Source: Rhodobacter sp. SGA-6-6
GTDB taxonomy: Bacteria; Pseudomonadota; Alphaproteobacteria; Rhodobacterales; Rhodobacteraceae
Assembly (NCBI RefSeq): GCF_011043545.1
Contig: NZ_JAAKGP010000002.1
Span: 62,001-126,000 of the forward strand
Direction of reading: 5' to 3'
DNA: 64,000 bases
The notes beneath the pieces are model-generated. The model ran no database searches and was not told the origin of the DNA. It saw only the letters and a program-made list of their open reading frames with translations. Below are positions 2,648-62,367 of this stretch, one piece after another. Position 1 is the first letter of the stretch. Each line of letters starts with the position of its first letter. Position numbers and translations under genes: made by a program.

Positions 2648-2859
2648 CGGGCGGGAGAAGGCGAGGCACTGCCTCGCCCCGCCCGTGCGCGGCGGCTGCA
2701 ACCGGAAACGGCTGTGGCACGAGACCCCGAGAGGCCAGCGTCCGCCCGGGCGGGCGAGAAGCGCCCGCCAAGGGGCGGGCGGGCGCTGGCCGGGCCTTTG
2801 AGGCCCGGCCGGGACAAGGGGACCCGTTGCGCGATGGCGAAGGCACGCGCCTTCGCCAA
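2648..2859 (+). repeat. Four-hairpin dispersed element, copy A
   Basis: A 212-bp intergenic element with four stems. H1 at 2660-2678 is GGCGAGGCA-C-TGCCTCGCC. H2 at 2733-2791 has a 12-bp outer stem starting GGCCAGCG and an inner stem capped by AGAAG. H3 at 2788-2810 has arms GGCCGGGCC and GGCCCGGCC. H4 at 2836-2857 has arms GGCGAAGGC and GCCTTCGCC. The outer H2 stem contains one T opposite G, a wobble only if the plus strand is the RNA. It lies between ftsH and corA, both minus strand. Other copies are at 11753, 20639, 58393 and 62156, with a variant at 61419. Confidence 0.9.
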
Positions 2860-2883
2860 GGAAGCCCTTGGCCGCCTGCGTCT

Positions 2884-2922
2884 CCCCCAAAACCAGAAGG
2901 CCCCGCTCTCGCGGGGCCTTCT
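2884..2922 (-). terminator. Intrinsic terminator of ftsH
   Basis: A perfect 12-bp stem (arms AGAAGGCCCCGC and GCGGGGCCTTCT, 2895-2922, 4-nt loop) starts seven bases past the ftsH stop. On the minus strand it is followed by TTCTGGTTTTGG, a moderate U-rich tail. Position and shape fit a rho-independent terminator. Confidence 0.8.
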
Positions 2923-2928
2923 CCACCG

Positions 2929-4851
2929 TCACAGCGGCGAGGGTTCCGGGTCGGGCTTCGGCTTCGCCGCCCGCGGTTTGCGGGTCTTCGGGATCGACAC
3001 CACCGAGGCCGTGCCGCCGCCCGAAGGCGCCGGCGGGGTGCCGGCATCGGCATCGTCGCCCAGTTTCTCGCCGGCGATCACCTTGCGGATCTCGTCGCCG
3101 GTCAGCGTCTCGTATTCCAGGAGACCCTTGGCTAACCGTTCCCAATCCTCTTGCCGCTCGGTCAGGATGCGGCGGGCGGTCTCGTAGCCCTCGTCGATCA
3201 GGCGCTTCACCTCCTGCTCGATCAGCCGCTTGGTCTCGGCCGAGACCGAGAAGCCGCCGGCGTTGCCGGAATAACCTTCATGCGCCTCGGCATAGTCGAT
3301 GTTGCCGACCACCTCGGACATGCCCCAGCGCAGCACCATGGCGCGGGCCAGCGCCGAGGCCTGCTGGATATCGCCCGAAGGTCCGTTCGACACCGCCTCG
3401 TCGCCGTATTTCAGAATCTCGGCGGCCTTGCCGGCCATGGTCATGGCGATGCGCTGCTCGCACTGGTCCTTGTGCCAGTTCAGCCGGTCCATCTCCGGCA
3501 GGCTCATCACCATGCCGAGCGCGCCGCCGCGCGGGATGATCGTCGCCTTGTAGACCGGATCGCATTTCGGCAGCGACATGCCGACGATGGCGTGGCCGGC
3601 CTCGTGATAGGCGGTCATCTCCTTCTGCTCGGGCGTCAGCACCATCGACCGGCGCTCGGCCCCCATCATCACCTTGTCCTTGGCGTTCTCGAAATCCACC
3701 ATGGTGACGAAGCGGCGCCCCGCCCGGGCGGCCATCAGCGCCGCCTCGTTGACAAGGTTCATCAGATCGGCACCCGAGAAGCCCGGAGAGCCGCGCGCGA
3801 TGGTGCGCAGATCGACATCGGGACCAAGCGGCACCTTGCGGGCGTGGACCGACAGGATCTTCTCGCGCCCCTTGATGTCGGGGTTCGGGACATGGATCTG
3901 GCGGTCGAACCGGCCGGGGCGCAAGAGCGCCGGGTCCAGCACGTCCTTGCGGTTGGTGGCGGCGATGATGATCACGCCCTCGTTGGCCTCGAACCCATCC
4001 ATTTCCACCAGAAGCTGGTTCAGCGTCTGCTCGCGCTCGTCGTTGCCGCCGCCGATGCCGACGCCGCGGGCGCGGCCCACCGCGTCGATCTCGTCGATGA
4101 AGACGATGCAGGGCGCGTTCTTCTTCGCCTGCTCGAACATGTCGCGCACGCGGCTGGCGCCGACGCCCACGAACATCTCCACGAAGTCGGAGCCGGAGAT
4201 GGTGAAGAACGGCACCCCGGCCTCACCGGCGATGGCCCGAGCCAAGAGGGTCTTACCCGTGCCCGGGGGGCCGACCAGCAGCGCGCCCTTGGGAATTTTC
4301 CCGCCGAGACGGGAGAATTTCTGCGGGTTGCGCAGGAATTCGACGATCTCTTCCAGCTCTTCCTTGGCCTCGTCGATCCCGGCCACGTCGTCGAAGGTCA
4401 CCCGGCCCTGCTTTTCCGTCAGCAGCTTGGCGCGCGACTTGCCGAAGCCCATCGCGCCGCCGCGGCCGCCGCCCTGCATCCGGTTCATGAAGAAGATCCA
4501 GATGCCGATCAGCACCAGGAAGGGCAGCCACAAGGACAGCATCGACATGAAGCCCGATTCTTCCTGCGGCACCGCCTTGACCTCGATGCCCTTGGCGATC
4601 AGCCGGTCGGTGATCTCCTCGCCATCCGGCTTGATCGCCACATAGGAGGTGCCGTCCTTGCCCCGGATCTCCACCCGCTCGCCGTCCAGGGTGACGGACT
4701 GGATCTTGTCGCCCTCGGCCATGGCGATGAAGTCCGAATAGCTGAGGTTGCGCGAGGACATGGTCGACTGCCCGCCCGAGAACAGCTGGAACAGCATCAC
4801 GATGAGAAGAAGCAGGACGGCCCAGAAGGCGATGTTTCGTGCGTTGTTCAC
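2929..4851 (-). CDS. ftsH: ATP-dependent zinc metalloprotease FtsH
   Basis: A 640-residue membrane AAA+ protease that degrades misfolded membrane proteins and short-lived regulators. Visible in order are membrane helix 1 (about 7-24), a periplasmic domain, membrane helix 2 (about 103-123), Walker A G-P-P-G-T-G-K-T, Walker B F-I-D-E-I-D, the second region of homology [10 protein letters not shown], and the zinc site H-E-A-G-H. Length is normal for the family. It follows tilS by 78 bp, a common alphaproteobacterial arrangement. A heat-shock-like promoter candidate lies in that gap, and a strong terminator closes the gene. Confidence 0.97.
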
Positions 4852-4905
4852 GAAGAGACTCCCGTAACGGCCACGGCCCGCCGGGTGCGGCGCGGCTTTG
4901 ATCCC

Positions 4906-4933
4906 AAGATAGTCATCTGCGGCCGGGGTTCAA
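4906..4933 (-). promoter_or_regulatory. Candidate heat-shock-type promoter of ftsH
   Basis: On the minus strand TTGAAC (4928-4933) and TATCTT (4906-4911) are separated by 16 bp, 55 bp before the ftsH start. The TTGAA / CTATNT pattern resembles alphaproteobacterial RpoH promoters, and ftsH is a classic heat-shock gene. The -35 overlaps the end of tilS. The assignment rests on sequence pattern only. Confidence 0.45.
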
Positions 4934-61363: not shown

Positions 61364-61418
61364 GCGCGCGGCGGCATGTCTGCTTCGCAGGATATTGCGG
61401 TCATCCGCGCGCAACAGA

Positions 61419-61581
61419 GGCCAGTGCCCGACCGCGGGTGGGCGCCTCCGACGGTGCGTAGCAGGCGCTTTATGGTGCGGCCTCTCCTTCGGCCCGAGCG
61501 GAGAACCGACGGCGCAGAAGCGCCCGCCCGGGGGGCGGTCGGGCGCTGGCCGGGGGCGCTGACGCGCCTGTTGACCCGGCC
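61419..61581 (+). repeat. Expanded partial variant (F) of the four-hairpin element
   Basis: A 163-bp derivative keeping H2 and H3 only. The outer stem GGCCAGTGCCCGACCGC (61419-61435) pairs with 61535-61551 over 17 bp with one U-G wobble. An inner 10-bp stem (61436-61445 with 61520-61529) has another. The inner stem is capped by about 74 nt instead of AGAAG. H3 keeps GGCCGGG/CCCGGCC with an enlarged loop that itself folds (GGCGC/GCGCC). It lies between convergent lldD and the NTF2-like gene. Confidence 0.75.
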
Positions 61582-61635
61582 GGAGCTTCATCGGGAAGGT
61601 AACGCCAAGGCGCCCCATGTCCGGGGTCTCGTCAC

Positions 61636-62067
61636 TCAAACCACCCCGCGCGCCTTCAGCAGCGCCTGTTCGTCGCCCGACATCCAGCCGAAGACCTTCG
61701 GCTCCCCATTCAGCACCTGCACGAGGTAATGGACCTCGAAGTCGATCTCCGTCTCCGGCAGGTCGTCGCGGGCATAGACCGCGGTCCAGGCGACATGGGC
61801 CAGACAGTGCCAGTCGTCGATGCAGGCGACATGCAGGTGTCGGATGCGCATCTCTCGGGTGCCGATGCTGCGGTAATATTCGTAGCCGGCCCGCATCGCC
61901 TTCAGGAACTCCGCGTCGTTCTTGCCGGTGGCGATGCCGGCCGGGGTGGCGGCGATGAACTCGGGGGCGTAGAGCGCGGCGGCTTCCTCCGGGTCCGGCT
62001 CGCCGGCCAGCGACCGGGCGAAGAAGCCGGCGTAGCGCTCGAACAACTGTCTGACGGCCTGTTCCAT
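61636..62067 (-). CDS. NTF2-like (SnoaL fold) protein
   Basis: A 143-residue protein of the NTF2-like superfamily (alpha+beta barrel), beginning M-E-Q-A-V-R-Q-L-F-E-R-Y-A-G-F-F. Typical elements are A-A-L-Y-A-P-E-F-I-A and a W-T-A-V-Y strand. The start at 62067 has a strong AGGAGGAG ribosome site, which excludes the longer open frame. No function can be assigned. It is flanked by the F variant downstream and copy E of the four-hairpin element upstream. Confidence 0.8.
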   Translation of the reverse strand: MEQAVRQLFERYAGFFARSLAGEPDPEEAAALYAPEFIAATPAGIATGKNDAEFLKAMRAGYEYYRSIGTREMRIRHLHVACIDDWHCLAHVAWTAVYARDDLPETEIDFEVHYLVQVLNGEPKVFGWMSGDEQALLKARGVV

Positions 62068-62155
62068 GGCTCCTCCTGTATCCGGGGCATCGGGGGATAT
62101 GGGGGTTCCGGGCATTGGAGGCTAGGGAGGGTCGACATCTGCGGCGGGTGCCGGC

Positions 62156-62367
62156 CGGGCGGGACAAGGCGAGGCACTGCCTCGCCCCCGCCCGTGCGCG
62201 GCGGGTGCCCCGGAGACGGTGACCGTGAGAGACCACATAGGCCAGCGCCTGCCCGGGCGGGCGAGAAGCGCCCGCCGAGGGGCGGGCGGGCGCTGGCCGG
62301 GTGCTTTGGGCACCCGGCCAGACAGGGGGAACCGTCGTGCTGTGGCGAAGGCGATGGCCTTCGCCAA
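62156..62367 (+). repeat. Four-hairpin dispersed element, copy E
   Basis: A 212-bp copy in the divergent gap between the NTF2-like and aminotransferase genes. H3 (62295-62319) has arms GGCCGGGTGC and GCACCCGGCC, a compensated change from the GGCCGGGCC/GGCCCGGCC of copies A, B and D. The outer H2 stem has a T-G wobble at a different position from copy A. H4 has the loop changed but the arms kept. Confidence 0.92.

Follow-up and report, generated by a model that had tools for sequence, protein, structure and literature searches.

The stretch of DNA analysed here (the window) comprises 64,000 nucleotides of the draft genome of Rhodobacter sp. SGA-6-6, hereafter the home genome (assembly GCF_011043545.1, contig NZ_JAAKGP010000002.1, positions 62,001 to 126,000), and carries five copies of a palindromic element built of four hairpins, H1 to H4. 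An earlier note on this DNA had described the copies as sharing the order of the stems and a nearly constant length, and this was borne out when the sequence was read again: all five copies are intergenic, are 207–213 bp long and have the order H1-H2-H3-H4, with a mean column identity of 89%. Four are on the plus strand and one, copy 2, is on the minus strand. The copies, and an example of the H2+H3 core discussed below, are as follows.

Copy 1: 2648..2859, plus strand; H1 2648-2685, H2 2733-2791, H3 2788-2810, H4 2835-2858; in the corA/ftsH gap, both genes on the minus strand
Copy 2: 11753..11963, minus strand; H4 11753-11776, H3 11801-11823, H2 11820-11878, H1 11925-11959; flanked by a thioesterase gene, read as ybgC, and a MotA/TolQ/ExbB gene, read as tolQ
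Copy 3: 20639..20850, plus strand; H1 20639-20677, H2 20724-20782, H3 20779-20801, H4 20826-20849; between convergent genes for a cupin protein and a 2-hydroxyacid dehydrogenase
Copy 4: 58393..58605, plus strand; H1 58393-58431, H2 58479-58537, H3 58534-58556, H4 58582-58605; between divergent genes for a YchF-type GTPase (minus) and a glyoxalase-like protein (plus)
Copy 5: 62156..62367, plus strand; H1 62156-62194, H2 62240-62298, H3 62295-62319 (GGGTGC..GCACCC form), H4 62343-62366; between divergent genes
H2+H3 core, example: 20724..20801, plus strand; the core common to Rhodobacteraceae genera, as captured by model R2

In copy 2 (11753-11959), the outer H1 stem is shifted, and the profile match reaches ~11963. 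In each of the five copies, H2 and H3 have four bases (GGCC) in common and are therefore not independent stems. When one whole copy (212 nt) was folded, its stability gave a z-score of −5.58 against dinucleotide shuffles, and none of 200 shuffles was equally stable. The ten proteins that flank the copies were scanned against Pfam and include CorA, FtsH, the MotA/TolQ/ExbB protein, the thioesterase and the YchF-type GTPase; no transposase was found among these ten, the scan being confined to them, and to that extent the earlier statement that no transposase is nearby was upheld. The names ybgC and tolQ are our own assignment.

Two further observations were made in the window. The ybgC/tolQ gap (11358-12069, 710 bp) contains more repeat-like palindromes besides the element, and the sequence directly upstream of tolQ is kept in the congeners. 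A further element of several hairpins, one half of which is H2-like, lies at ~61456-61584; it also occurs at C44:4966, C23:120815 and C33:184699 (C numbers denote contigs of the home genome), which gives four copies, the window copy counted, in the 1.664 Mb described below.

Copy number, constancy and mosaic structure

To describe the element beyond the window, we read a sample of 1.664 Mb of the 4.29-Mb home genome, consisting of the window, contig C12 to 526 kb, the first 400 kb each of C23 and C1, the first 300 kb of C44, and positions 180–280 kb of C33. C23 and C1 were picked after a first DNA search had shown matches there, some of them already one-sided in strand. In this DNA search, in which 40 of 372 candidates were scored, all 40 were near full-length matches, and 101 full copies were identified by profile in the sample. 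An exact pattern of the core matched 157 times in the whole genome, as compared with no match for the reversed pattern; since the sample held 73 pattern matches per 101 full copies, the genome is estimated to contain ~217 copies, in agreement with the hundreds that the earlier note had projected from the window. Their density is uneven, with none in the first 100 kb of C44 and, among the exact-pattern matches listed, two on C1 past 400 kb. All 84 copies on C12, C23 and C1 lie outside genes as called by our own gene caller. Besides the 101 full copies, four partial ones were found, one lacking H2 and three consisting of the right (H4) end only (C23:103442-103538, C1:212085-212168, C23:280617-280670); none of the four was a left end only. 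The three right-end-only copies hinted at 5' truncation but were too few to sustain it.

The alignment of 85 home copies revealed a marked difference between stems and linkers. Stem positions were 99.1% constant, as compared with 79.6% for unpaired positions, and 46 of the 85 copies had no change at all over 98 stem positions. The linkers of the same copies differed by 33% pairwise, with a median difference of 18% from the nearest neighbour. The only strong association over a long range in the home genome was a compensatory pair in H2, other than that of the b-c helix described below (r2 0.78). With compensatory columns excluded, the mean r2 among 39 two-allele columns fell from 0.37 at 1–3 bp to 0.107 at 4–8 bp, 0.028 at 9–20 bp and 0.014–0.022 beyond 20 bp, close to the permutation mean of ~0.016, the observed values still lying above all 100 permutations at 9–20 and 51–100 bp. 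Beyond 20 bp, the variants are thus close to linkage equilibrium, and the copies are mosaics. Loops of discrete types (ACGC and GATG in H4, for example) reassort among copies, so that this structure reflects recombination among the copies and not independent decay. Local conversion between neighbouring copies was rejected as its source, since similarity showed no effect of genomic distance.

The element in congeners and the wider Rhodobacteraceae family

The earlier note had proposed a model search of the genome and of related genera, and this yielded many home copies and a widespread H2+H3 core, with the full element in few congeners. A model of the whole element (R1) matched all 39 scored candidates at home. 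In 12 congeners, with 39 candidates scored per genome under strict filters, it found three copies in G011, one in G010 and none in the other ten; a strong full-length copy was found in one other genus (G024), and weaker matches occurred in further genera. The sequences of H1 and H4 are rewritten in the copies of G011, G024 and G010. At the window loci, the ftsH locus was recovered from 11 congeners, and the element was absent from all five ftsH/corA gaps that could be aligned. It was likewise absent from the ybgC/tolQ gap of the nine congeners in which both genes were found, where the gap measures 111–200 bp as compared with 710 bp at home, and no profile match was obtained at this locus in 11 relatives, ybgC not being found in two of them. 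The best reading of this distribution is that the four-hairpin element has expanded in the home lineage.

The H2+H3 core is present in other genera of the family, with its pairing kept and its sequence rewritten. The exact core pattern was found in 23 of 120 genomes including the home genome, at 1–4 places each outside home, of which at least two (L152 and L162) do not fold as the core. Model R2 matched in 23 of 39 genomes including home, with 1–15 matches each outside home and 110 of 110 scored candidates at home. Among named genera, Phaeobacter, Leisingera, Tritonibacter and Ruegeria carry it on plasmids. Covariation was examined in 67 distinct rows from relatives, which include congeners, plasmids, one viral contig and one reverse-strand row. 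Double-sided (compensatory) change was observed in 16 of 25 family-wide pairs, and double-sided cells numbered 121, as compared with 33.5 ± 4 after shuffling and at most 20 in slid controls; none of 500 shuffles reached the observed values, in an alignment that had been fitted to the model, which favours covariation. By eye, the H3 arms CCGGCG..CGCCGG, CAAATC..GATTTG and CCGTGC..GCACGG are rewritten and still paired. These compensatory changes across genera show that the fold itself is under selection, which fits a mobile element and an RNA alike. A covarying fold, as in a structured RNA family, is present, and none of 4227 Rfam families matched, either over the window's element or at the loci of 20 relatives.

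A second helix was found within H2. The 3' arm of its apical hairpin is able to pair alternatively with the G-rich stretch that directly follows it (the b-c helix). In 66 rows read by regular expression, the reverse-strand row being left out, T was matched with A in 13 of 13 cases and G with C in 49 of 53, the remainder being two G.U, one G-A and one without a partner; in total, 62 rows had a Watson-Crick pair and two a G.U pair. The same H2 column is unpaired in the apical helix in 18 of the 67 rows. Since this half-hairpin covaries besides the long hairpin, H2 is a nested double palindrome, whose halves can fold singly or pair with one another; each half is maintained as a separate palindrome, as is the case in REPINs.

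Individual sites of the core were compared among strains of Leisingera and Phaeobacter. At one site of the 175-kb plasmid of Leisingera aquaemixtae (L263:23275-23365, L265:48467-48557), strains R2C4 and M602 have one copy, S166 and M597 have a different copy in the opposite orientation, and L. methylohalidivorans has a collapsed remnant. Between rfbB and rfbD, the copy of Phaeobacter inhibens DSM 17395 has lost its H2; in P. porticola and in three strains of P. piscinae, this gap is filled by other sequence. No clean empty site was found on the plasmids read, the sites holding other copies, an inverted copy, other sequence or deletion remnants. The sites are, therefore, stable and their content changes, and strains with variant copies at one site offer a place to catch events.

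In five genomes, the core also precedes cimA, beside cysS (gene names assigned by eye). Of 22 relatives tested, only two had it within 300 bp upstream of cimA, and one of these two belonged to the five; we rejected its presence there as a sign of a fixed function. In the home cysS/cimA gap (L231) and in congeners (L228, L230, L240, L241), the core is replaced by another element, recognised by eye and made up of three AT-rich hairpins (TTTTCGAAAA and CTTCGAAG types); it is also scattered elsewhere in the home genome. Such replacement could mean either that the site tolerates passengers, one being exchanged for another, or that different hairpins can do the same job.

Gene context, candidate movers and the weighing of explanations

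The claim that the copies are not tied to one gene context held in so far as convergent, divergent and co-directional gaps are all used (two of the five window copies lie in divergent ones), but convergent ends are favoured, divergent gaps are rarely used at 60–300 bp left, and one strand is preferred on three contigs. Among gaps with 60–150 bp left after removal of the element, 23 of 69 convergent, 21 of 274 co-directional and 1 of 101 divergent ones were occupied; with 150–300 bp left, the figures were 6 of 26, 21 of 120 and 3 of 96. The median distance from a copy to the stop codon of a flanking gene ending towards it was 34 bp, and the upstream gene had the same strand as the copy in 52 of 83 cases and the opposite strand in 31. 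On C12, C23 and C1, the top strand lay on the C-rich, gene-poorer strand in 71 of 84 copies, and this held for each type of gap (83 copies placed: convergent 32:3, co-directional 33:8, divergent 6:1). Judged from these two features of draft contigs, this strand is presumably the lagging one. G.T cells exceeded A.C cells on the top strand, by 90 to 24 in the relatives (51 to 24 minus one near-fixed column) and by 33 to 12 at home, suggesting that the top strand is the folded one.

We then searched for an enzyme that could move the element. A REP-associated tyrosine transposase (RAYT), which the earlier note had proposed to look for, was not found: the home genome gave no match to Y1_Tnp, the controls being positive in 5 of 14 genomes, and Y1_Tnp was absent from 22 of the 23 core-bearing genomes. 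Of the three genomes with Y1_Tnp in the family sample of 39, only G027, which is in short pieces, bears the core. A RAYT/Y1 partner was thus refuted as a general explanation. The single match to RVT_1 at home was best fitted by models of Drt2 antiviral reverse transcriptases, at 382 bits against an NCBIfam Drt2 cut-off of 390:

Drt2-like antiviral reverse transcriptase: L278:6367-7662 (home contig C13), 431 aa; PADLOC E 3e-129; on a plasmid-like contig of lower G+C

Because the only RVT_1 match is thus Drt2-like, retro-mobility by a group II intron or retron was rejected; no copy of the element was found in the 14.5 of 32 kb of that contig that were read. A search for repeat families in G015 yielded nothing useful. 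At the ends of the copies, the flank consensus fades over ~12 bp on each side, with a weak, imperfect inverted consensus visible by eye, and neither GTAG nor CGTC occurred at the foot in the end and flank consensus of 83 copies. The terminal inverted repeats with target-site duplication of a classical miniature inverted-repeat transposable element were not seen. The flank consensus has no T-run after H4, where a AAGGAAACC-like sequence stands instead, so the element does not look like an intrinsic terminator. A separate repeat with a GTAG foot (GTAGGGCGGGGTTCACCCCGCC) was found at 48 places in 1.264 Mb of the C12, C23 and C1 samples (at most three mismatches), for example beside copy 2; it looks like a repetitive extragenic palindrome (REP), though the home genome has no Y1_Tnp match. 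It was rejected as the outer part of a composite, as it lies within 300 bp of only 21 of 84 copies.

Taken together, we consider the element to be probably a dispersed, non-coding, non-autonomous palindromic repeat of ~213 bp, similar to REPINs and BIMEs, that has expanded in one lineage and recombines among its copies. The choice that had been left between such a mobile element and a multi-stem RNA is thus decided only in part: the former is supported by the large number of copies, their lineage-specific occurrence and their location between genes, and the compensatory changes fit either. Spread by copying is well supported. A low-copy H2+H3 core is found throughout the Rhodobacteraceae, and a four-hairpin derivative of it has ~217 copies at home. 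At replication forks, an enzyme acting in trans would recognise the hairpins in single-stranded DNA and so spread the element; ectopic gene conversion would continually reshuffle its copies, and selection against damage to promoters would leave them mostly at gene 3' ends. Bolder, and in our estimate doubtful, is a new class of non-autonomous element in which the fork's lagging strand would take up single-stranded copies of the hairpin-rich top strand, which would both found new copies and overwrite old ones; if true, this would account at once for the strand bias, the absence of Y1 transposase and of target duplications, the selection on folding of the top strand and the near-complete linkage equilibrium among dispersed copies.

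A number of observations weigh against a mobile repeat of this kind. No candidate enzyme was found at home: the search, which covered Y1_Tnp, TnpB and Y2_Tnp, gave no match to a TnpB-type domain and none to Y2_Tnp, the control for the latter being silent. Among 80 copies, no consistent direct repeat was seen (the largest excess was 8 copies for any 2-base position scanned), the mean longest flank match was 5.8 for own and 5.8 for cross flanks, and no complementarity between a copy's own flanks was found. No clean filled/empty pair was found between close strains, so that no insertion event was observed and the element's ends are not exactly defined, and the four sites on the Leisingera aquaemixtae plasmid were all occupied in both fully read strains, indicating that movement is rare there. 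The closest pair of linkers among the 85 copies differed by 7.6%; there are thus no near-identical copies and no sign of very recent activity. The preference for gap type was reversed where at least 300 bp were left (divergent 4 of 42 occupied, convergent 0 of 14). The strand bias was absent from C44 (7:7), the ratio on C33 was 1:2, strand agreed with the local GC skew in 72 of 101 copies (Fisher p 3e-5), and the top strand, if it is the folded one, is opposite to that expected for IS200/IS605-type insertion.

The main rival is a structured RNA, in which the folded top strand would act at mRNA 3' ends or between genes, in stability, processing or the insulation of convergent genes, with amplification secondary. 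The strong compensatory change across the 67 rows, the top-strand excess of G.T, the closeness to stop codons and the core upstream of cimA all argue for it. However, orientation to the neighbouring genes is mixed, on the Leisingera plasmid as at home, the home excess of G.T was not significant when counted per pair (13 vs 9, p 0.52), the T-tract is lacking, ftsH has its own terminator-like hairpin that is common to congeners without the element (by eye), and the cimA position is rare among relatives, the home genus having the other hairpin element there. We therefore regard an RNA role as possible, not as probable. The strand bias that three contigs show whatever the gene context, together with the strong conservation of the stems, could also suggest a polar DNA landmark, that is, a protein-bound, replication-oriented motif for chromosome organisation like KOPS or AIMS, but no congener had more than three copies among its 39 scored candidates, C44 lacks the bias, and known polar motifs are short and have no need for single-stranded folding, which makes this explanation quite unlikely. 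Least credible of all are neutral relics of an old burst, in which nothing but the template-switch correction of quasi-palindromes at replication would have kept the hairpins perfect. Such correction would leave the arms complementary while their sequence drifts between species, as in the rewritten H1 and H4 of G011, G024 and G010; the home copies, however, share stem sequence and not pairing alone, with constant stems beside divergent linkers, so that stem identity already largely exceeds what the age of the copies would leave, and loop alleles that reassort between copies are not given by independent drift.

The copies form a freely recombining population within one chromosome, which could be used to measure ectopic gene conversion, and a covariance model can serve to screen for the family. 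No earlier description of this family was found in the titles and abstract beginnings searched, most subscription journals lying outside that search.

Comparison with known systems

ERIC, RIME and Bru-RS are, like the element described here, intergenic palindromic repeats of at least ~100 bp without a gene; by description, the basis on which they were compared, their architecture differs. Members of the IS200/IS605 family insert without target duplication, and PATEs are among their derivatives. The likeness to this family lies in hairpins near the ends and, putatively, in replication-linked insertion, as described in the parts of PMC6006769 consulted; in contrast, neither Y1 nor TnpB was found in the home genome, and the presumed lagging-strand bias seen on three of five sampled draft contigs places the top strand on the strand other than expected. 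The GTAG- and CGTC-tagged REPs (PMC3733652) are likewise high-copy extragenic palindromes; the element ends without either tag, the separate GTAG-bearing repeat of the home genome apart, and the text of that paper, as far as consulted, makes no mention of rhodobacter, paracoccus, roseobacter or alphaproteobacteria.

BIMEs, according to the parts of PMC2817692 consulted, are mosaics of palindromic modules between genes, as are the copies here; the element differs in that its module order is fixed, the sequence variants of the modules are reshuffled, and no RAYT was found. REPINs are paired inverted REP sequences. In the passages of Bertels and Rainey (2011; PMC3116915) used here, they resemble the element in that short, conserved palindromes form inverted pairs of constant length around a variable sequence, in that their hairpins show compensatory change, and in being extragenic and presumably non-autonomous. 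High-copy extragenic palindromes, and an inverted pair that folds singly or together, were thus found in our element as well, which differs in having four hairpins and ~213 bp and in lacking a GTAG/CGTC foot and a RAYT (Y1) gene in its genome; strand bias and linkage equilibrium between modules, both observed here, do not appear in those passages. Because no Y1 transposase was found and neither the GTAG foot nor a consistent target duplication was seen, the element is not a RAYT-REP. REP-type repeats are usually credited to RAYT transposases; since the Rhodobacteraceae family is common, reaches ~200 copies and is nearly always without a RAYT in our sample, either another mover must exist or the repeats pay their way.

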